Shown piece after piece: positions 18,284 to 27,539 of a stretch of DNA of 64,000 bases. Within the stretch, counting starts at the first letter, position 1; the number at the start of each line of letters is the position of its first letter. The notes under the pieces are model-generated. The model was not told the DNA's origin, ran no database searches, and saw nothing but the letters and a program-made list of their open reading frames with translations. The translations under genes and the position numbers were made by a program. Location: assembly GCF_900115225.1 (NCBI RefSeq), contig NZ_FOVR01000002.1:372001-436000 (forward strand), given 5' to 3'. Source of the stretch: Cohaesibacter marisflavi (lineage in GTDB: Bacteria > Pseudomonadota > Alphaproteobacteria > Rhizobiales > Cohaesibacteraceae).

Positions 18284-19273
18284 ATGATTTCACGTGGTAT
18301 CGCGGCTGCTCTCCTCTGCTGCACTTTCATTGCTGCACCTGCTGTGGCTCAAGACAAGCTCACCATCAAATACACCACGGCTTCGGTTCCTTCGGACCTG
18401 CATACCAAAGCAATGCATGTCTTCAAGGAAGAGTTGGAAAAGAAAGTGCCTGGTCGCTTTGACGTTCAGCTCTATGATTCCGGTACCCTTTTCGCTCAAG
18501 GTGCTGATCTTGACGCTCTGCAGCGTGGCAATGCAGAAATGACCTATTTGTCATTCCAGTTGATCGCTGACAATATGCCTCAATATAGCGTGCTGACGGC
18601 GGGCTATCTGTTCCAGAATGCGAAGCATTATCGCACCTTCCTGAATTCGGATCTGGGTACCGAACTGAAAGAAGCCGTATCCAACGATATGGACGTACAG
18701 CTTCTTGATACATGCTATCTTGGTACGCGCGAGCTGAACTTGCGTGCCGAAAAAGACGTTCAGACCCCTGATGATCTCAAAGGCGTCAAGCTGCGCATGC
18801 CTGGCTCTGATGCATGGTTGTTCCTTGGCCAGGCTCTTGGTGCAAGCCCCACTCCGCTGCCATTCGGCGAAGTGTATCTCGGCCTGCAGACTGGCACTAT
18901 CGATGCTCAGGACAACCCGCTGCCAACGGTTGAAGCTGCTAAATTCTACGAAGTTACAAAGCAGATCACTCTGACCGACCACCTTGTTGATGGTCTCAAC
19001 ATTGCCGTGAACAACCAAACCTGGGAACAGCTGAGCGAAAGCGAAAAAGCTGCCATGGTCGAAGCTGCTCAGGCATCTTGTGACTGGAACAACGAACAGC
19101 GCTACAAGGAAGAAGCCCGTTTGATCGACTTCTTCAAGGAAGAAGGTCTGAAAGTCACAACGCCGGATGTTGATGCATTCCGCAAACATGTGCAGGACTT
19201 CTACTTCAGCTCGGATCGTTCCAAAAACTGGCCGGAAGGCTGGGTCGAAAAGATCAACGCAATGGCCGAATAA
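18284..19273 (+). CDS. dctP: TRAP transporter substrate-binding protein, DctP type
   Basis: A 329-residue periplasmic binding protein: signal peptide to about residue 22 (APAVA-QDK), then the DctP fold with KYTTASVPSDLHTKAM at the start, the RGNAEMTYLS strand, LRMPGSDAW and the segment GLQTGTIDAQDNPLP near the conserved helix. DctP proteins bind carboxylates, often sugar acids, through a conserved arginine; LRMPG holds that candidate. GGGAGGAC sits before the ATG. As first gene of a three-gene TRAP operon divergent from the rhamnosidase operon it probably imports an acidic sugar or oligosaccharide. Confidence 0.9.
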   Translation: MISRGIAAALLCCTFIAAPAVAQDKLTIKYTTASVPSDLHTKAMHVFKEELEKKVPGRFDVQLYDSGTLFAQGADLDALQRGNAEMTYLSFQLIADNMPQYSVLTAGYLFQNAKHYRTFLNSDLGTELKEAVSNDMDVQLLDTCYLGTRELNLRAEKDVQTPDDLKGVKLRMPGSDAWLFLGQALGASPTPLPFGEVYLGLQTGTIDAQDNPLPTVEAAKFYEVTKQITLTDHLVDGLNIAVNNQTWEQLSESEKAAMVEAAQASCDWNNEQRYKEEARLIDFFKEEGLKVTTPDVDAFRKHVQDFYFSSDRSKNWPEGWVEKINAMAE

Positions 19274-19288
19274 GGAGCATTTGCTGCT

Positions 19289-19795
19289 ATGGCTAATATC
19301 CTTTCAAAGGATATGCTGCTCGCAACCGGTCGCCTTTTAAAAAAGGCGGCCGACGCGATCGGCGTCCTGCTCTTCCTGTTCGCCTTTGGCGGGTTCATTG
19401 TACAGATCTTCTATCGCTATGTGATGAACGCGCCTCTTCTGTGGACGGAAGAAATCACGATGATCGCATTCATTTGGACCGTGTTCTGGGCGGCTGCATT
19501 CATGACGCCGGTTCAGTCTCATGTGTCTTTCGATGTGGTTTACGACGTCGTAAATCCCAGAACGCGCAGGATGTTCAGCATCATTTCCATGTTGGCACTG
19601 TTCATCTCTTTCGTGCTGCTGGTTCCGGCCACATGGGATTATCTCCAATTCCTCACCCGCAAAAAAAGCTCTGTTCTGCGTTTGCCCATGTATTGGATCT
19701 ACGGCTGCTACATGCTGTTTATCCTGGGTTTTATCGTTCAGGCCGCCTATCGGCTGTACGGTTTGCTGAGCCAGAAGTGGGAAAAATATATTTAA
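19289..19795 (+). CDS. dctQ: TRAP transporter small membrane subunit, DctQ type
   Basis: A 168-residue subunit with four predicted membrane helices and the family sequence FYRYVMNAPLLWTEEITM in the loop after helix 1. It would associate with the large DctM subunit encoded 15 bases downstream. The start follows AAGGAGC 9 bases upstream. Confidence 0.88.
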   Translation: MANILSKDMLLATGRLLKKAADAIGVLLFLFAFGGFIVQIFYRYVMNAPLLWTEEITMIAFIWTVFWAAAFMTPVQSHVSFDVVYDVVNPRTRRMFSIISMLALFISFVLLVPATWDYLQFLTRKKSSVLRLPMYWIYGCYMLFILGFIVQAAYRLYGLLSQKWEKYI

Positions 19796-19810
19796 AAGGG
19801 TTGAGTTAGA

Positions 19811-21115
19811 ATGACCTTCTTCGCAGATCACGCTCTAAGCCTGATGCTGATCATCATGATTGGTATCACGATTGCCGGGCTGCCTATGGGTATCTCGATG
19901 ATCGTTGCCAGTATCTTCTATCTCTTTTTCTCCGGACAAGATGTCGGTCTGGCTGCCGAGAATGTTCTGAACGGTGTGTTCGGTAACTTCGTGGCGCTTG
20001 CGGTTCCTCTCTTCATTTTTGCTGCCAACATCATGAATGCCGGTAAGGTGTCAGACCGAATATTGACCTTTGCCTTGGCGTTGGTCGGGCGCGTGCCCGG
20101 CGGTTTGGCGCAGGTGAATATCATGACGTCGCTTATCTTCTCGGGCATGAGCGGCTCGGCCATCTCCGATGTGGCCGGTGTCGGTAAAGTCCTGACGGAC
20201 ATGATGATCAAGGAAGATCGCTATCCGCGTGGTTTTGCTGGAGCAATCACGGCGGTTTCTGCCGTTGTGGGTCCGATCTTCCCTCCGTCTATCCCTGTGA
20301 TTTTCTACGCACTGATCTCCTCCACATCCGTTGGCGTATTGTTCCTTGGCGGTGTTGTTCCGGCCTTTCTGGTTTGCACCACGCTCGGCATCGCGGTGAT
20401 GATCATGGCCAAGCTGCGCGGGTTCCCGGTTGAGGAAGCTATCCCCCTTAAAGCTTTCCCGATCATTCTGATCCGGGCGCTGCCAGCGCTTCTGATGCCG
20501 ATCATTCTGCTTGGCGGCATCTACTCCGGCGCCTTCACCCCGACCGAAGCGGCCGCAGTTTCAGCCTTCTATGCGCTGCTTTTGGCTGCCTTCGCCTATC
20601 GTGTGCTTGGCTTCTGGTCCTTCATCTCGGTGGTGCGGGAAACGGTCAAGACGACGGCAGTGGTCACCATCGTTCTGTGTGGTGCCTATATCTTCAACTA
20701 TATCGTCACCGTGGAACAGGTTCCCCAGCAGGTCTTCGCATTCTTTGATGCAATGGATCTCAACCGGGTTCAGTTCCTGCTGATCCTGAATGCTCTGTTC
20801 CTGGTTCTGGGTTGCGTGCTTGACTGCTCGACAATCATGCTGGTTGTCACGCCTTTGTTTATCCCAACCGCATTGGCATTGGGTATCGACTTGCACCATC
20901 TGGGCATCGTGCTGGTGTTCAACATGATGATCGGTCTGGTGACGCCTCCATATGGCATCCTGCTGTTCATCATCAAGGCTCTGAACGGGATTCCGCTTGG
21001 TGAAATGATCCGTGAAAGCTGGCTCTTCCTTGGTCTTTTGATCATGCTGCTGCTGCTGCTGACCTTCTTCCCGCAGCTGGTACTGTGGCTGCCTCACTAT
21101 GCAGGGATGCTATAA
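19811..21115 (+). CDS. dctM: TRAP transporter large membrane subunit, DctM type
   Basis: A 434-residue permease with about 12 helices. Family motifs are GMSGSAISDVAGVG, the pro-rich VGPIFPPSIPVIFYA loop, GAFTPTEAAAVSAFYALL and the second-half NMMIGLVTPPYGILLF. It is the sodium-coupled transport subunit of the tripartite system. Operon spacing is 15 bases; a strong terminator follows at 21167. Confidence 0.9.
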   Translation: MTFFADHALSLMLIIMIGITIAGLPMGISMIVASIFYLFFSGQDVGLAAENVLNGVFGNFVALAVPLFIFAANIMNAGKVSDRILTFALALVGRVPGGLAQVNIMTSLIFSGMSGSAISDVAGVGKVLTDMMIKEDRYPRGFAGAITAVSAVVGPIFPPSIPVIFYALISSTSVGVLFLGGVVPAFLVCTTLGIAVMIMAKLRGFPVEEAIPLKAFPIILIRALPALLMPIILLGGIYSGAFTPTEAAAVSAFYALLLAAFAYRVLGFWSFISVVRETVKTTAVVTIVLCGAYIFNYIVTVEQVPQQVFAFFDAMDLNRVQFLLILNALFLVLGCVLDCSTIMLVVTPLFIPTALALGIDLHHLGIVLVFNMMIGLVTPPYGILLFIIKALNGIPLGEMIRESWLFLGLLIMLLLLLTFFPQLVLWLPHYAGML

Positions 21116-21166
21116 GTTTCCTCCCAAACAGGCTTCAATACACTTTCCCAAAGCCTTCAAACTGAG

Positions 21167-21204
21167 AACGGGTGGCCCCAAGCGACGGAGCCACCCGTTT
21201 TTGT
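21167..21204 (+). terminator. Rho-independent terminator of the TRAP operon
   Basis: AACGGGTGGC (21167-21176) pairs with GCCACCCGTT (21190-21199), 13-base loop, followed by TTTTTGTTT. Confidence 0.85.
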
Positions 21205-21424: not shown

Positions 21425-22801
21425 ATGCATCCGCGTACGATCGACGTTCTGGTTTTTTCCATCACCTATCAGAGTATTTTCAAGGTGCGAAACGTCGAAA
21501 GATGGATGATGCCAATGCAAGAAGAGTTCGTCAGTTGCCTGAGCGATTTTGGAATGGCGCCGGCAAAAGCTTATCAGCAGATTTCACTAGAGCTCGAAGG
21601 TGACGGTGATCCATATATGGATCTGGGTAGCTTTACAGCTGTGCGCATGGAGCCAGAAGCTGATCGCCTTATCTGCGATCATCTGGGCAAGAATCTTGCC
21701 AATCAAAATGAATATGGTGAAACCACGCACATTCATAAGAGGCTGGTCCAAACCATCGCCGATCTTTTGGGGGCACCGAATGTAGAACATGCAGCAGGGT
21801 GCTCCACGTCTGGGTCGTCTGAAGCCTGTGCCATTGCGATGCTGATGCATAAACTAATTTGGCAAGCCAGCGCATCACGCAGCCAGTTGCAACGCGCTCC
21901 CAATATCGTTCTTGGCAGAAACGCACATTTGGTCTGGCGGAAATTTGCGCTTTATCTGGGCGTTGAAGTGCGGGAAGCGAGCTTCAAGAGGATCAATCGC
22001 TACCCACTGCAAAATGTCGTTGATCTGGTGGATGAAAATACTATTTGTGTGGTCGCCGTCATGGGCTCGACCTTTTCTGGCTTTTGCGATCCGATAGAGA
22101 AGATAAACGATGCGCTTATGAAGCTGAACGCGCGCAACGGCTGGAATGTGGGCATTCATGTCGATGGTGCCATAGGAGGCTTCATTCTGCCGTTTCTTGA
22201 AGATCCCGCAAAACCGGTATGGGATTTCGCTTTGCCTCTTGTCCGCTCAATCAATCTTTCCGGGCATAAATTCGGACTGGTTTATCCCGGTCTTGGTTGG
22301 CTCATTTTGCGAGACCAATCCATTATTCCTGATGCAATGAACATGACGGCGAGCTATCTCACCGGTAACACCCAGTCCTACGCGATTTCTTTTTCTCGTT
22401 CCTCATCTCTTGTTGTGGCGCAATATTTCAATTTCCTTCATTTCGGCCGCGCCGGATATGGAGCGATTATCGAGCGCTGTATGAAAAATGCCCGCTATGT
22501 TGCGGCAAGCCTGGAAGCAATGGGTTGCTTCGATATTATCAGCACCCTTTCATTGCCGGTTATTACTTTCAGCCTTAAGTCGGGCAGCGCTTTGACCGAG
22601 GAAGCGCTGTGCCGAGATCTTGGAGAAAGAGGCTGGATGCTCCCTCATTTTGCAATGCCGCAAAATATAGGCTGCAACGCAATGCGGATTGTCATTCGAG
22701 AGGACATGACCCGCAACAGACTGGATGCCCTGCTTGATGACGTGGCTGACATTCTGAGTAAGCAGGTAAGATGCATTCCCCCATTGAAGCACGCAATTTG
22801 A
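21425..22801 (+). CDS. Glutamate decarboxylase-like PLP enzyme
   Basis: A 458-residue group II PLP decarboxylase, closest to bacterial glutamate decarboxylase (GadA/GadB). Conserved blocks are GSSEACAIAMLMHK (129-143), WRKFALYLGVEVREA, DENTICVVAVMGSTFSG, HVDGAIGGF with PLP-ring Asp247, SGHKFGLVYPGLGW with Schiff-base Lys282, and FSRSSSLVVAQYFNFL. Compared with E. coli GadB, the ring-stacking Gln163 position appears to be His168 and GadB His167 is Arg172, so the substrate may not be glutamate. It would yield an amine such as GABA. The start is uncertain: ATG 21425 has a weak ribosome site, and ATG 21506 or 21515 would remove 27-30 residues. An ion-channel gene follows after 25 bases. Confidence 0.8.
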   Translation: MHPRTIDVLVFSITYQSIFKVRNVERWMMPMQEEFVSCLSDFGMAPAKAYQQISLELEGDGDPYMDLGSFTAVRMEPEADRLICDHLGKNLANQNEYGETTHIHKRLVQTIADLLGAPNVEHAAGCSTSGSSEACAIAMLMHKLIWQASASRSQLQRAPNIVLGRNAHLVWRKFALYLGVEVREASFKRINRYPLQNVVDLVDENTICVVAVMGSTFSGFCDPIEKINDALMKLNARNGWNVGIHVDGAIGGFILPFLEDPAKPVWDFALPLVRSINLSGHKFGLVYPGLGWLILRDQSIIPDAMNMTASYLTGNTQSYAISFSRSSSLVVAQYFNFLHFGRAGYGAIIERCMKNARYVAASLEAMGCFDIISTLSLPVITFSLKSGSALTEEALCRDLGERGWMLPHFAMPQNIGCNAMRIVIREDMTRNRLDALLDDVADILSKQVRCIPPLKHAI

Positions 22802-22826
22802 GATAATCGACAAGGAAAACAGAAGC

Positions 22827-23897
22827 ATGACGCAGAGGGCGATGACTTGTAGAAGGCTGATTGCCGGCACGTTGTTTATCATGTTTTCGTGGATGATTGC
22901 CGCCCCTGGCTATTCTGCTCAGCCGCCGTCTTCAAGCCGCGAGCAACTTGGAACAAAGGCAAGCGTTGCTCTCAACATCAACAAGATCTACGAACTTAAT
23001 GAGTTGAACGAGACCTATGTGATCGACGGCTATCTTGTGACATCCTGGCAGGACGACGGGCTGGTGGAGCGCATAGAAAGCGGTGCAGTCGCCCCGGATG
23101 TCTATGAGAACAGCGCCATTGATAATTTGATAGCCGGTGGCCTACGTATTCCGGCAATTGAATTTATCAATGTGGTTGGGAACCGGTCCGTTGCCAACCG
23201 ACAGGTGGTGATAGGTGAAGACGGCAAGGTTCTTTACAATGAGCGTTTTCAGGCCACCTTCTCAACCCCGATGGACTTTCGCAAATTTCCTTTCGACAAC
23301 CAAATACTGACCGTTCAGCTGGAATCCTTTTCCTACGACAAAACCCGTTTTGAATTTGTCGACCCGAAAGTGTATCCCGAGTTGGTCAATATGGACATGT
23401 TGGCTGAATGGAATATCGTCGACAAACAGGTTTTCATCAGTGATCAGGACTATTCGCACCTGAGCGAAGACGGCAGCAAAACCGAATTCTCACGCTACAA
23501 TCTGAATTTCACGCTTGAACGGAAATGCGACTATTACGTCTGGAACTTCATGCTGCCTCTGATCCTGATCATCACCTCGTCGTGGTGTGTCTTCTGGGTC
23601 GATGACTTTCTCACCAATATCTCGATTGCCTTTACACTCATGTTGACGGTTGTAGCCTTCACCTTTCAGGCAACGAGCCTTTTGCCGCGGTTACCCTACA
23701 CGACCTTCATGGGGATGCTCACGATACTGGGCTATCTGAGCATCTTTGCCAGTATGGTTGTGATTGTGGCGGCCGAGCTCTTCGAGAGGAAATCGGAGGA
23801 TTTTGACAAGGCTAAGCTTATGCGTAGTGCGCGCGTTTTCTATCCGATCTGCATTATCTGCATCATCCTGTTTCAAATTCGTATTTTTGATCTGTAG
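22827..23897 (+). CDS. Pentameric ligand-gated ion channel, ELIC-like
   Basis: A 356-residue Cys-loop-superfamily channel subunit. Signal peptide about 1-31 (GYSA-QPP); extracellular ligand-binding beta domain about 35-235, with the family Pro-loop FPFD at 154-157 and no Cys pair, as in other prokaryotic members; M1 about 237-258 (LPLILIITSSWCVFW); M2 about 262-286; M3 about 292-316; M4 about 336-354. M2-M3 shares FTLMLTVVA and LPRLPYTT exactly with ELIC of Dickeya, including Thr270 (6'), Leu273 (9') and Phe280 (16'). ELIC is opened by primary amines including GABA. The M3-M4 loop is short. Product would be a homopentameric inner-membrane cation channel. Starts 25 bases after the decarboxylase gene. 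Confidence 0.92.
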   Translation: MTQRAMTCRRLIAGTLFIMFSWMIAAPGYSAQPPSSSREQLGTKASVALNINKIYELNELNETYVIDGYLVTSWQDDGLVERIESGAVAPDVYENSAIDNLIAGGLRIPAIEFINVVGNRSVANRQVVIGEDGKVLYNERFQATFSTPMDFRKFPFDNQILTVQLESFSYDKTRFEFVDPKVYPELVNMDMLAEWNIVDKQVFISDQDYSHLSEDGSKTEFSRYNLNFTLERKCDYYVWNFMLPLILIITSSWCVFWVDDFLTNISIAFTLMLTVVAFTFQATSLLPRLPYTTFMGMLTILGYLSIFASMVVIVAAELFERKSEDFDKAKLMRSARVFYPICIICIILFQIRIFDL

Positions 23898-23917
23898 AAC
23901 GCCAAGAGTGAGGCCCC

Positions 23918-25282
23918 ATGGACATCATCAAGACAAGACCGAAAATGGAGGCTGCCATTCTTTCTGGTCTCGTGGTTTCCCTCATCTGCTTTCTGGCTTT
24001 TCTAATCTACAGCAAGTCTGTTGATGTGCTGGAAAAGGAGATCAAGATCGGTCTGCTTTCCAATGTGTCTGCCGCTGCGACAACCATTGACGGCGACCTG
24101 CACAAGACATTTGATAAGTCCACTGCGCGCGACGATCCGGACTATCTGGCAGCTATCAGACCGCTGGAGAAAATCCGTCAGGCATCAGCCAATATTCGGT
24201 ATATCTACACCAATATTCTCAAGGGCGATGATGTCTTCTTCATCCTTAACCCCAGTCCTCAGAATGACAATGATGGTGATGGGCAACCGGATGTGCCTCC
24301 GGCCTTGATGGAACGCTATGATGACGCAGCCCCGGAGCTGATCGAAGCTCTGAAGTCTCAAAAGAAGGTCGTATCCGATCCTTACACCGATAAATGGGGC
24401 ACCTTCATCAGCGCTTATGCGCCCTTCTATGATGCGCAGGGCGCCTTTGTTGGTGTGCTCGGAATGGATCTTCAGTTGAATGATTTCTACAGCCGTATCT
24501 ATCCCATCCGGCTGGCTTTTGAGAAAACTGCCTTCATTGTGGTCTTTATCGGCCTGATCATCGGGCTGCTGACATGGATCTCGCGAAAATATGCTGCCTT
24601 TCTGGGCCAACAGAATGCCTTTTTGCAGTCACGACAAGCACAGAGAGGTGACCATCTTGCTTTGGTCAAACAAAACTTCATTGATCTGCTTGAGGTCTTT
24701 GCAAAAACGCCACAGAAAGACGGTCTGACGCCTTTGATCAAGGTTTGGCTAGAGTATCTAAAAAGCACAGAGGCGCTCGTTCAAGATAAGGAAAATTTCC
24801 GAATTGATGCATTGATGGATGATGTTAAGGCCCGGATGCTCCCTTCCACATCCCTGACTATCTCGACTGATGAGGCTATTCCACCTGTTCTGCTGGCGGA
24901 TAAGAACGTCCTTCAAGAGCTGCTCGTTATCTGTTGCACGCATATTGGAACAATGGCTGGGGCTAATACTGTAACGCTCGATATAAAGCGGCTCGATGAA
25001 GCTGTCGACAGCCTGACGTTTGCAATGGTGTTCAAGGCCCAAGGCCATCACCCAAGCGAGGGAATGTCTGATCGGAACTTAGAACCAGAGTACTCGAAAG
25101 CCGAACTCTACAGCGTGCAGGATCTCGAATTCTTCAAGGCAGTTGCCGCCGTAAAGGCCATGGGCGGCCATGTCAGTTGGCAGGAAGACGCAGAAAACAA
25201 TGAGAATGAGAATTCAAGTCTCTCATTGGAGCTTCCAATAAGCAAATATGAAGAAGACAATGCGCGAGAGGCTGCCGAATGA
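23918..25282 (+). CDS. Cache-domain membrane sensor with degenerate histidine-kinase module
   Basis: A 454-residue sensor. TM1 about 12-31, periplasmic Cache-like domain about 32-195, TM2 about 202-221, cytoplasmic part about 225-454. The Cache part contains IRYIYTNIL and GVLGMDLQL strands and an insertion D117-N-D-G-D-G-Q-P-D125 that fits the DxDxDGxxD calcium loop of thrombospondin type 3 repeats. The cytoplasmic part has an N-box-like position (DKNVLQELLVICCTHIG) without the catalytic Asn and a G2-like end (AVKAMGGHVSWQED, LSLELP) without the glycine-rich lid. No phospho-accepting H-box is visible. It is therefore probably a pseudokinase or binding scaffold. GAGTGAGG precedes the ATG; its stop overlaps the next ATG by four bases. 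Confidence 0.7.
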   Translation: MDIIKTRPKMEAAILSGLVVSLICFLAFLIYSKSVDVLEKEIKIGLLSNVSAAATTIDGDLHKTFDKSTARDDPDYLAAIRPLEKIRQASANIRYIYTNILKGDDVFFILNPSPQNDNDGDGQPDVPPALMERYDDAAPELIEALKSQKKVVSDPYTDKWGTFISAYAPFYDAQGAFVGVLGMDLQLNDFYSRIYPIRLAFEKTAFIVVFIGLIIGLLTWISRKYAAFLGQQNAFLQSRQAQRGDHLALVKQNFIDLLEVFAKTPQKDGLTPLIKVWLEYLKSTEALVQDKENFRIDALMDDVKARMLPSTSLTISTDEAIPPVLLADKNVLQELLVICCTHIGTMAGANTVTLDIKRLDEAVDSLTFAMVFKAQGHHPSEGMSDRNLEPEYSKAELYSVQDLEFFKAVAAVKAMGGHVSWQEDAENNENENSSLSLELPISKYEEDNAREAAE

Positions 25283-26445
25283 AACAGATTACCCCCTTCA
25301 TTCTGGTGCTTGCCGCCTTTGGCATCCAACTGTCATCAGGGATCAACTATATCACTTTTCCGCTCGTGCTCCAGTCGCAGGGAGCAACCAATGCGTTGAT
25401 CGGCTTTATCATGTCCTGCGATATTCTTGCACTGATTGTCTTTTCGAGCAGGATTTCACTGCTTGTCAAAAAGCTCGGTGTGATCAACACCATCATCATC
25501 TGTTCTCTGGTGCGCTGTGCGGTCGTCTATTTCCTGTCTAACAATGACATGATTGTCGGCTGGATCGCAGGCATGTTCATCTATGGCCTCACGACCAATG
25601 CTCTTCTTGTCGTGGTGCAGACCTGGCTGAACATGGTTTCAGTTGGCAAACTCAAGGGCCTGATCATGGGGCTCTTTTCCTCGGCCCTATCGTTGGGTAT
25701 CGCACTGGCCCCCATTATTTTACGCTTTACCGATATGCATAGCCGCTTGCCTTTTATTATCAGCAGTATGATTTCGCTTCTGGTTCTGGCAACCATGTTG
25801 ACGGTTGTCAAAAGTCGCCCGTCTTTTCATTCTGACAAAAGGGCACGCATTGGCTTCGTTTTCAAACATGCCAAACTCATTCTTCTGTCTGCTGTCGTGG
25901 GTGGTTTTTGCTTTTTCGGGCTACCGTCATTTCTCACGATTTACGGCATCAAGAATGGCCTGAAGGCAGAAGATGCCGCTTTGTTGCTAACGATGTTTAT
26001 GCTGGGAAGCGTTACTCTGGGCATGATTGTGAGCACGCTCTCTGCTTTTTACAGTCACTATCGTCTCGTTTTCATCTGTGTCTGTGTCTCGGTCTTCTGT
26101 GCTTCTTTCCTGTCACTTGCAATCTACTCTCATCTGTTTGTCGCTCTGGGCCTGCTTTATCTGTGGGGTGGCTGTATGGGGGGGATCTATGCGCTGGGGC
26201 TGAACATTATCGGTGAACAATTCCGCCAGGAGGACCAGATGTCAGCCAACATGTCTTATACGCTTATGGATGCGCTTGGTGGCATGATTGGCCTTTGTAT
26301 CATCGGCACCAGTATGGATATTGTCGGTGCCGAGGGCTTGTCCTATACCATCGTGGTGGCCGCGATGTGCTATCTGGTCTATTTCTTCAGATCGATAGCA
26401 TCCCGCTTTTCTGTTGTCCGCAATCTAGCCGACCCCGCAACATAA
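25279..26445 (+). CDS. MFS transporter, YcaD-like
   Basis: A 388-residue major facilitator protein with 12 predicted helices and no large cytoplasmic loop. The second half contains LYLWGGCMGGIYALGLNIIGEQF, a segment typical of the YcaD-like MFS group (COG0477), and the half-1 motif NMVSVGKLKGLIMGL. The ATG overlaps the stop of the sensor gene (ATGA), so it is translationally coupled to it. In this operon it could export the amine made by the decarboxylase or take up its precursor, replacing the GadC-type antiporter of classical gad systems. That role is inference. Confidence 0.8.
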   Translation: MKQITPFILVLAAFGIQLSSGINYITFPLVLQSQGATNALIGFIMSCDILALIVFSSRISLLVKKLGVINTIIICSLVRCAVVYFLSNNDMIVGWIAGMFIYGLTTNALLVVVQTWLNMVSVGKLKGLIMGLFSSALSLGIALAPIILRFTDMHSRLPFIISSMISLLVLATMLTVVKSRPSFHSDKRARIGFVFKHAKLILLSAVVGGFCFFGLPSFLTIYGIKNGLKAEDAALLLTMFMLGSVTLGMIVSTLSAFYSHYRLVFICVCVSVFCASFLSLAIYSHLFVALGLLYLWGGCMGGIYALGLNIIGEQFRQEDQMSANMSYTLMDALGGMIGLCIIGTSMDIVGAEGLSYTIVVAAMCYLVYFFRSIASRFSVVRNLADPAT

Positions 26446-26612: not shown

Positions 26613-27539
26613 TTACAACCAGTAGGCAGAATCGGGGCGGGTGGCGTCTTTTACCAAGGTGTCGATCAGCGCTCGCTGTGCCGGTTTCAGGTAGCGCGAT
26701 CGGGGCCATACCGCGTGAATGGGCATCTCGGCTCCTGCAAAGGATTCAAGAACAGGCACCAGTGCTCCGGTCGCGAGAGCGCCTGTCACCAGCCATGTCG
26801 GCAATTGCGAGAGACCTGCGCCAGCCAGCGTGGCTTCCAGCATGGCATCACCGTCACTGAATTCGTGCCGCACCCTGATGAGGTGCGGCGTGGAGGTGCC
26901 ATCTGGCTGGCGAAGCAACCAGGCTGCGGGGCTGTCTTCACGACGGCTGCCGATGATGCCATCGTGTTCAATGAGGTCCGCAGGCGTTTCAGGCTCACCG
27001 AACTGTGTGATATAATCCGGACTAGCGCAAATCACCAGTCGTTGGCGTCCCAGCCGCCGAGCCACAAGGTCCGCATCATCTGCCAGAGATCCGATCCGCA
27101 CGACGAGATCTACTCCGTCGTTGATAAGGTTCACGCGTCGCTCCGTGAAGTTGACCGAAAGATCGAGCGACCGGTGCTCGCCCGCCAGTCGGGTCAGGAC
27201 GGGCAGCACATGCCTGCGCCCGAATGCCGCTGGCAGGTGAATATTCAACCGTCCCGAAATGCGCCCGCTCTGTGCGACGACCGAGTCTTCAAGGCTGCGC
27301 ACATCAGACAGAATCTCCGCCCAGCCATCGAAATAGCGCTGGCCTTCCGGGGTGAGCGACAGGCGACGGGTGGTGCGATGCAGGAGCTTTGTCCCGAGCC
27401 TTGCTTCAAGGCGACTGACGCTCTTGCCCACGGCCGAGCCGGTTAGTCCCAGCTGCATACCAGCCCCCGTGAAGGAACCGCTACGTACAGCTTCCACAAA
27501 TTCACGCACGCCAGCAAAGGGATCAGTTGTGTTTATCAT
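26613..27539 (-). CDS. LysR-family transcriptional regulator
   Basis: A 308-residue LysR regulator: N-terminal winged helix about 8-66 (FTGAGMQLGLTGSAVGKSVSR then LEARLGTKLLHRTTRRLSLT) and a C-terminal periplasmic-binding-like effector domain. It is divergent from an old-yellow-enzyme gene with 148 bases between the starts, the arrangement in which LysR proteins usually control the neighbour. It converges with the MFS gene of the channel operon (167 bp apart), so it is unlikely to be co-transcribed with it. Confidence 0.9.
   Translation of the reverse strand: MINTTDPFAGVREFVEAVRSGSFTGAGMQLGLTGSAVGKSVSRLEARLGTKLLHRTTRRLSLTPEGQRYFDGWAEILSDVRSLEDSVVAQSGRISGRLNIHLPAAFGRRHVLPVLTRLAGEHRSLDLSVNFTERRVNLINDGVDLVVRIGSLADDADLVARRLGRQRLVICASPDYITQFGEPETPADLIEHDGIIGSRREDSPAAWLLRQPDGTSTPHLIRVRHEFSDGDAMLEATLAGAGLSQLPTWLVTGALATGALVPVLESFAGAEMPIHAVWPRSRYLKPAQRALIDTLVKDATRPDSAYWL

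Follow-up and report, generated by a model that had tools for sequence, protein, structure and literature searches.

Organization of the locus

The window analyzed here, i.e., the whole stretch of 64,000 nucleotides from Cohaesibacter marisflavi, carries four open reading frames (ORFs) on the + strand that encode, in this order, a pyridoxal phosphate (PLP) decarboxylase, an ELIC-type channel, a membrane Cache protein, and a transporter of the major facilitator superfamily (MFS). Genes 1 and 2 are separated by 25 bases and genes 2 and 3 by 20 bases, and genes 3 and 4 share a 4-base ATGA overlap. The ORF coordinates agree with the original prediction, made from the letters alone, which had described a one-strand set with these gaps and this overlap. 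The family searches returned Pyridoxal_deC/TIGR01788, Neur_chan_LBD, MCP-like_PDC_1, and MFS_1, in line with the family assigned there to each of the four genes. The features of the set are the following.

21425..22801, + strand: gene 1, divergent glutamate-decarboxylase-type PLP enzyme, 458 aa (PF00282; TIGR01788 at 411 bits, cut-off 380.4)
21701..21703, + strand: Asn codon at the position of Asp86 of Escherichia coli GadB, the substrate gamma-carboxylate site (alignment)
22827..23897, + strand: gene 2, ELIC-type pentameric ligand-gated channel subunit, 356 aa, with an N-terminal signal-like segment recognized by eye (PF02931, E 1.3e-14; ELIC, E 1.3e-73)
23202..23204, + strand: codon for Gln126 of the channel, aligned with ELIC Arg91 in the tail-end part of the agonist pocket (alignment)
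23918..25282, + strand: gene 3, 454 aa, transmembrane (TM) helix, periplasmic Cache/PDC domain, TM helix, and degenerate histidine-kinase-like cytoplasmic part (PF22673, MCP-like_PDC_1; AlphaFold2 model)
24266..24292, + strand: DxDxDGxxD loop of the Cache domain, candidate Ca2+ site (motif alignment)
25279..26445, + strand: gene 4, MFS transporter, weakly NorA-like, 388 aa (PF07690, MFS_1, E 6.8e-33)

The start of gene 1 is ambiguous, with ATG codons at 21425 and 21506 as candidates.

Conservation and distribution of the module

We collected 15 distinct ELIC-clade loci, including four from Cohaesibacter, two from flavobacteria, seven from Vibrionaceae, and two from the family of Dickeya (loci L031 and L034 share the species name Vibrio penaeicida and were counted as two). 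Roughly 6-10 kb of flanking sequence was included for each, with ORFs taken from stop to stop and starts that are approximate. A search with hidden Markov models (HMMs) found the decarboxylase, channel, Cache, and MFS genes in the same order on one strand in 14/15 loci, and a decarboxylase in all 15. The first eight loci supplied the sequences for the HMMs and the remaining seven served as a test set, of which six contained all four genes. The fifteenth locus, L059 from a flavobacterium, has a GAD-type (glutamate decarboxylase-type) enzyme and the channel only. In the other flavobacterial locus, L029, about 6 kb with three genes separate the decarboxylase from the channel downstream. These genes (L029:1696-7940, same strand as the two genes they separate) encode a legume-lectin protein with type IX secretion system (T9SS) sorting, a PorP/SprF protein, and an OmpA-family protein.

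As controls, we searched 20 of 30 places with non-ELIC pentameric ligand-gated ion channels (pLGICs), about 20 kb each, and found a decarboxylase or Cache gene in 0/20 at E 1e-5 and one weak MFS match (41 bits), with HMMs that derive from the module and that decarboxylases of other folds would escape. These counts support the four-gene set as a real conserved module, and they answer in the affirmative the expectation of the original prediction that relatives of the channel gene would commonly adjoin the other three genes.

The module is not frequent. Counting the seed genome, it was present in 4/20 Cohaesibacteraceae, 4/197 Vibrionaceae, 2/349 Flavobacteriaceae, and 2/79 genomes of Dickeya's family. 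A draw of 398 genomes across the phylum gave a pLGIC match in eight, with an ELIC-level score in the window only, and a draw of 350 genomes from the class around genome G300 added only four further, lower-scoring channels (143-156 bits). In the genus of G573, the host of L059, the channel was matched in G573 alone among two genomes, and the channel search among plasmids gave no match. A contig scan based on a 3-row alignment with two narrow patterns retrieved seven loci, which is an under-count, and further loci came from the genome draws.

The flanking ORFs, compared by eye, vary between Cohaesibacter species, suggesting movement of the module, which is patchily distributed and probably horizontally moved. 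No flanking gene family was common to all locus groups, and the sole family common to at least three of them was DUF2589. DUF2589 genes lie within about 13 kb of the module in G299 (L031/L105), G573 (L059/L106), G858 (L060/L107), and G297 (L029/L108) and at locus L032, and are distant or on another contig in G298, G451, G453, and G481; they were not found in G300, in the four Cohaesibacter genomes, or in 14 control genomes. In some hosts the module may share an island with these genes.

The patchy occurrence (4/20 genomes of the family), the differing flanks between Cohaesibacter species, and the presence of DUF2589 near several modules are what one would expect if the four genes simply travelled together on an island as cargo, without a joint function. 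Against such chance linkage, order, strand, and close spacing are kept although identity has dropped to 41-55% in the channel and MFS proteins, and a second enzyme class fills the decarboxylase slot (see below). We consider this explanation highly improbable.

The decarboxylase of the window

The gene 1 protein belongs to the Pyridoxal_deC family and matches the TIGR01788 equivalog at 411.1 bits, above the 380.4 cut-off, so that its description as glutamate-decarboxylase-like is sustained, but for a divergent member: 15 canonical GADs of the same order score 616-676 bits (a partial match of 220 bits, G176, was left out of the comparison). The window enzyme is 32-35% identical to canonical GADs and 32% identical to E. 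coli GadB. No further GAD-type match was found in the genome of the window at E 1e-60.

Following the numbering of E. coli GadB, the window enzyme keeps Phe63, Asn83, Asp243, His275, Lys276, and Arg422, with the PLP-binding Lys within the motif SGHKFG. Ser takes the place of Thr62, a substitution shared with the solved structure 3hbx ("Glutamate decarboxylase 1"). The two GAD signature positions Asp86 and Gln163 are changed to Asn and His, respectively. His replaces Gln163 in 6/6 channel-linked GAD-type enzymes, and Gln is found in 16/16 others (E. coli and 15 of the window's order). Likewise, Asn replaces Asp86 in five of the six, and Asp is found in the same 16/16 others. All five full GAD-type modules have an enzyme with Asn at this position, and the enzyme of L059 keeps Asp86.

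The combined variant D86N and H465A of E. coli GadB was reported to retain 10% of its starting activity at pH 7.0 and 6% at pH 8.0, where the wild type is inactive, and it still accepts glutamate (PMC12961736). By analogy with this variant, the Asn at the Asp86 position suggests that the window enzyme may be freed from an acid-only regime. A His lies near the C-terminus of the window enzyme and is placed differently in the other Cohaesibacter enzymes, and the L029 and L059 enzymes have a His aligned with His465, in a tail where the alignment is unsure. For a divergent GAD-type protein such as the window enzyme, GABA (gamma-aminobutyric acid) is a plausible product.

A GAD-type enzyme beside a transporter gene recalls the acid-stress system of E. 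coli, where gadB adjoins the antiporter gene gadC and GadB is, as here, a PLP decarboxylase of the TIGR01788 family; the module could be a system of this kind with a channel attached. The two nevertheless differ in several respects. The identity between the enzymes is 32%, Asp86 is replaced by Asn, an MFS_1 protein stands in place of the GadC-type antiporter, and the channel and Cache protein are additional. The Asp86 signature is gone in 5/6 channel-linked GADs, and 9/15 homologous modules use an enzyme of another type. Due to the loss of Asp86 and the absence of a GadC-type partner, acid stress is the weakest of the functional readings, and a very unlikely one.

Two decarboxylase classes share one position

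The decarboxylase slot is occupied by two classes of enzymes. The divergent GAD-type is found in six loci (Cohaesibacter and flavobacteria), and the other nine loci (Vibrionaceae and Dickeya's family) have enzymes nearest to L-methionine decarboxylase, a label that denotes the nearest solved relative by sequence, serine and histidine being the substrates of related enzymes with solved structures. All nine match the second decarboxylase profile and not the GAD-type one, and identity between the two classes is 15-21%. Three methionine-type enzymes scanned against NCBIfam fell far under the GAD cut-off (no match, 30.6 bits, and 27.2 bits), their best match being histidine decarboxylase at 174-205 bits, below its cut-off of 305 bits. 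Compared to solved structures, the enzymes of L033 and L031 retrieved L-methionine decarboxylase first (E 8e-64 and 9e-67, respectively), followed by serine/histidine decarboxylases, and no GAD was among the matches at E 0.001. All nine are 35-37% identical to L-methionine decarboxylase 7cif, from Streptomyces, while the window enzyme is remote from it (22%). The product of methionine decarboxylase is 3-methylthiopropylamine. The filling of one slot by two classes only 15-21% identical suggests that the amine is what matters.

The result bears directly on ELIC. In Dickeya undicola, the channel is 96% identical to ELIC and the decarboxylase is of the methionine-decarboxylase type. Given this identity, the D. 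undicola operon can stand for that of ELIC. In 2011, the neighbour of ELIC was annotated as a glutamate decarboxylase, and GABA was hence considered a candidate ligand (PMC3119659). This label looks wrong, judging from the D. undicola enzyme, which sits beside a nearly identical channel and belongs to another class. The original prediction of a minimal GABA circuit consequently does not hold in general, as 9/15 loci, D. undicola included, have a methionine-type enzyme; for the window itself, GABA as the product stays plausible.

The channel and its agonist pocket

The best solved relatives of the window channel are ELIC structures (phmmer E 1.3e-73, residues 42-354), in agreement with the relative recognized in the original prediction, and the protein also matches Neur_chan_LBD. 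The identity to ELIC is 42% over 302 aa, and the homology is full-length, covering the ligand-binding domain and the four TM segments. A tree of 37 channels unites the channels of the 15 modules with ELIC in one group (support 100/99), apart from 21 other pLGICs, with long branches at L029 and L059.

Eight residues of the ELIC pocket, i.e., Tyr38, Glu77, Ile79, Asn103, Glu131, Phe133, Tyr174, and Phe187, are all identical in the window channel, which differs from ELIC at Phe19, Arg91, Pro132, and Asp158. Alanine mutants of ELIC at seven of these conserved positions (Glu77, Ile79, Asn103, Glu131, Phe133, Tyr174, and Phe187) gave no response to cysteamine (PMC3119659). Among the 15 module channels, Glu77, Ile79, Asn103, Glu131, Phe133, and Tyr174 are invariant; position 187 varies, with Phe in 11 channels and Tyr in four. 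Glu77 and Glu131 are located at the pocket's amine end. Short primary amines open ELIC; cysteamine (0.365 mM) and aminopropane (0.446 mM) are its best agonists, and butylamine and isopropylamine act weakly (PMC3119659). GABA is a plausible ligand of the window channel.

The position of Arg91 follows the enzyme class: it is Arg in ELIC and in 9/9 channels linked to methionine-type enzymes, and Gln in 6/6 channels linked to GAD-type enzymes. The R91A mutant of ELIC was about four times more sensitive to cysteamine (PMC3119659). A fewest-change count places one switch of enzyme class on the channel tree, so the Arg91/Gln pattern corresponds to a single evolutionary event and gives no independent support. 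We also considered a strict covariation between enzyme Asp86 and channel residue 91 and rejected it, because L059 combines Asp86 with Gln at position 91.

These substitutions are relevant to the identity of the amine. Enzyme and channel could be matched to each other while the amine of the window is not GABA, the enzyme using another amino acid and the channel being tuned to the resulting product. The gap in TIGR01788 score (411 against 616-676 bits for the 15 canonical GADs of the order), the changes from Asp86 to Asn and from Gln163 to His, and the Gln in place of Arg91 in the channel all fit this explanation, and the class switch in the other loci shows that the amine can change. On the other hand, the enzyme has a score that remains above the GAD equivalog cut-off, keeps Phe63, Asn83, Lys276, and Arg422, and has Ser for Thr62 as in 3hbx; in addition, the D86N-H465A variant of E. 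coli GadB still uses glutamate (PMC12961736). We hold a non-GABA amine in the window to be possible but doubtful.

The Cache protein and the MFS transporter

Pfam identified a Cache domain in the gene 3 protein, and inspection by eye places it between two TM helices. The AlphaFold2 model (14 sequences) had a mean predicted local distance difference test score (pLDDT) of 79.6 and a predicted template modelling score (pTM) of 0.43, and shows long helices flanking the domain. The cytoplasmic half was modelled as histidine-kinase-like, with RetS, GacS, DivL, and ETR1 among the best 50 Foldseek rows. However, this half appears degenerate as a kinase. No HATPase N and G boxes were recognizable by eye in the gene 3 protein, no invariant His was present in the cytoplasmic part across 14 aligned Cache proteins, and Pfam gave no HATPase match in the 6 of these 14 proteins that were scanned. 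Compared to 13 relatives, identity is 47-89% over residues 1-225 of the window protein and drops to 11-41% over residues 226-454; 72/75 invariant columns of the alignment fall within residues 1-225, the periplasmic and membrane part. An active kinase was rejected on these grounds.

The loop DxDxDGxxD is complete in 13/14 Cache proteins and reads DxNxDGxxD in the remaining one; the pattern is one associated with Ca2+ binding, which makes the loop a possible Ca2+ site. Because conservation is concentrated in residues 1-225 and the kinase half is degenerate, the role of a co-receptor or accessory subunit fits the sequences better than that of a signalling kinase. Of the original description as a Cache sensor with a degenerate kinase part, the domain and the degeneracy are thus retained, and given the pattern of conservation the role of a co-receptor or channel partner is at least as fitting as that of a signalling kinase.

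Accessory parts of this kind have precedents. A report of 2004 noted bacterial pLGICs with a fused or neighbouring Cache domain (PMC549065), and DeCLIC has a periplasmic accessory domain on a pLGIC, with Ca2+ effects (PMC9897478 and PMC12664993). The common trait is a periplasmic accessory domain or Cache protein; in the window, unlike in these cases, the Cache domain resides in a membrane protein of its own, which ends in a degenerate kinase-like part.

Concerning gene 4, a profile of eight MFS relatives retrieved among solved structures NorA entries only, as a weak match (E 1e-5). The export of an amine by this protein is our guess.

In an alternative view, the channel and Cache protein detect amines or amino acids of the environment, the MFS protein imports them, and the decarboxylase is metabolic. 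A similar idea was outlined for Dickeya in plant roots (PMC3119659), and the Cache and periplasmic binding protein (PBP) neighbours of pLGICs were taken in 2004 to suggest chemoreception (PMC549065). Environmental sensing and feeding appears rather unlikely to us: a decarboxylase produces amines instead of removing them, the only flanking family in at least three locus groups is DUF2589, which is no amine-using enzyme (the other flanks having been checked by eye), and the sole solved relatives of the MFS profile, albeit weak, are of NorA, an exporter.

Two side observations concern these genes. In L030, L031, L032, L034, L033, and L060, the likely start of the Cache gene overlaps the stop of the channel gene by four bases, compared to the 20-base gap in the window; this overlap makes translational coupling likely at those junctions. 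In C. haloalkalitolerans, a gene with a methyl-accepting chemotaxis protein (MCP) signalling domain (L027:13044-14381) opposes the end of the module, indicating a possible chemotaxis link of that module, and no such gene adjoins the module of the window.

Borders of the module

The module is bordered by the following features, which correspond to the terminator before and the opposing gene after it that had been foreseen.

About 21164..21202, + strand: hairpin followed by a T run (fold -25.1 kcal/mol, z -3.41; weaker piece in the pattern scan)
26613-27539, opposite strand: LysR-type gene downstream of the module (family match)

The hairpin was equalled by 2/200 shuffled sequences. A stricter terminator pattern scan recovered only a weak piece of it, and the number of terminator-like sites across the region was close to that in shuffled sequence (10 versus 7.2 +/- 2.3). 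The hairpin likely serves the upstream TRAP-transporter genes as an intrinsic terminator and would set the module apart from them. The TRAP transporter set lies directly upstream, at 18284-21115, and consists of a DctP-type binding protein gene and two further genes; in the other Cohaesibacter modules, different ORFs (by eye) are found at this place.

Discussion

We lean moderately towards reading the locus as the Cohaesibacter version of the ELIC operon, an autocrine or paracrine circuit that would make and read a short primary amine. The Dickeya (Erwinia) ELIC operon (PMC3119659; 2vl0 and other structures) shares with the window a homologous channel that is preceded by a decarboxylase gene, and the D. 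undicola channel is followed by Cache and MFS genes, as in the window. The differences are the enzyme, methionine-decarboxylase-type in D. undicola and GAD-type in the window, and the ELIC residues Arg91 and Glu229, which are Gln and Thr in the window channel.

In such a circuit, the decarboxylase would convert a cytoplasmic amino acid into an amine, in the window most likely glutamate into GABA, at neutral pH and not as an acid response. The MFS protein would carry the amine, or swap the amino acid for the amine, across the inner membrane. In the periplasm, the amine, either the cell's own or that of neighbours, would bind between the ELIC-type subunits and open the pore. Finally, the Cache protein, with a conserved periplasmic part that perhaps binds Ca2+, would act as a co-receptor or accessory partner of the channel, adjusting or reporting the amine signal without a working kinase.

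Several observations weigh against this circuit. The divergence of the window enzyme (Gln163 to His and Asp86 to Asn) means that its substrate may not be glutamate. At the tail end of their pocket the GAD-linked channels carry Gln in place of Arg, and this does not look like an improved site for the carboxylate of GABA. ELIC itself responds weakly to GABA, with a half-maximal effective concentration (EC50) of 2.4 mM, and does not respond to beta-alanine or glycine (PMC3119659). At the pore position of ELIC Glu229, the four Cohaesibacter channels have Thr, and thus their ion selectivity may differ from that of ELIC. Furthermore, the relation of the MFS protein to an exporter is weak, and a pattern scan of the region found no sigma-70-like promoter upstream of gene 1.

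A broader reading, which we put forward only tentatively, is that the decarboxylase of each operon makes the compound that gates the ELIC-type channel encoded in it, with the Cache protein as an accessory subunit, and that the transmitter was switched once in evolution. In the methionine-type form (Dickeya and Vibrio), ELIC would then have as its natural ligand not GABA but an aliphatic or thioether amine, for example 3-methylthiopropylamine. In the GAD-type form (Cohaesibacter and flavobacteria), the ligand would be GABA itself or a close analogue, produced at neutral pH.

Part of this picture is already known. The link between a decarboxylase and ELIC, with GABA as a candidate, was published in 2011 (PMC3119659), and on this point the set is not new. 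The conservation of the four genes, the two enzyme classes, the pocket difference, and the lopsided conservation of the Cache protein were not in print among the matches listed, although Figure 6A of the 2011 paper may show part of them, namely the Cache and MFS genes. The 2011 paper stated that the ligand of ELIC in the living bacterium was unknown, a 2016 review of the family gave the function of ELIC as a hypothesis only (PMC4795631), and a review of microbial GABA has ELIC in its reference list only.

ELIC is a model for nerve-receptor channels, and the enzyme-class result speaks against the GAD label that was the reason given in 2011 for considering GABA its likely natural ligand. If the neighbouring enzyme makes the ligand of the channel, the question of the natural ligand becomes directly testable. 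Should the broader reading be true, these operons would represent a transmitter-like circuit in bacteria, in which a signal is made, exported, and read.

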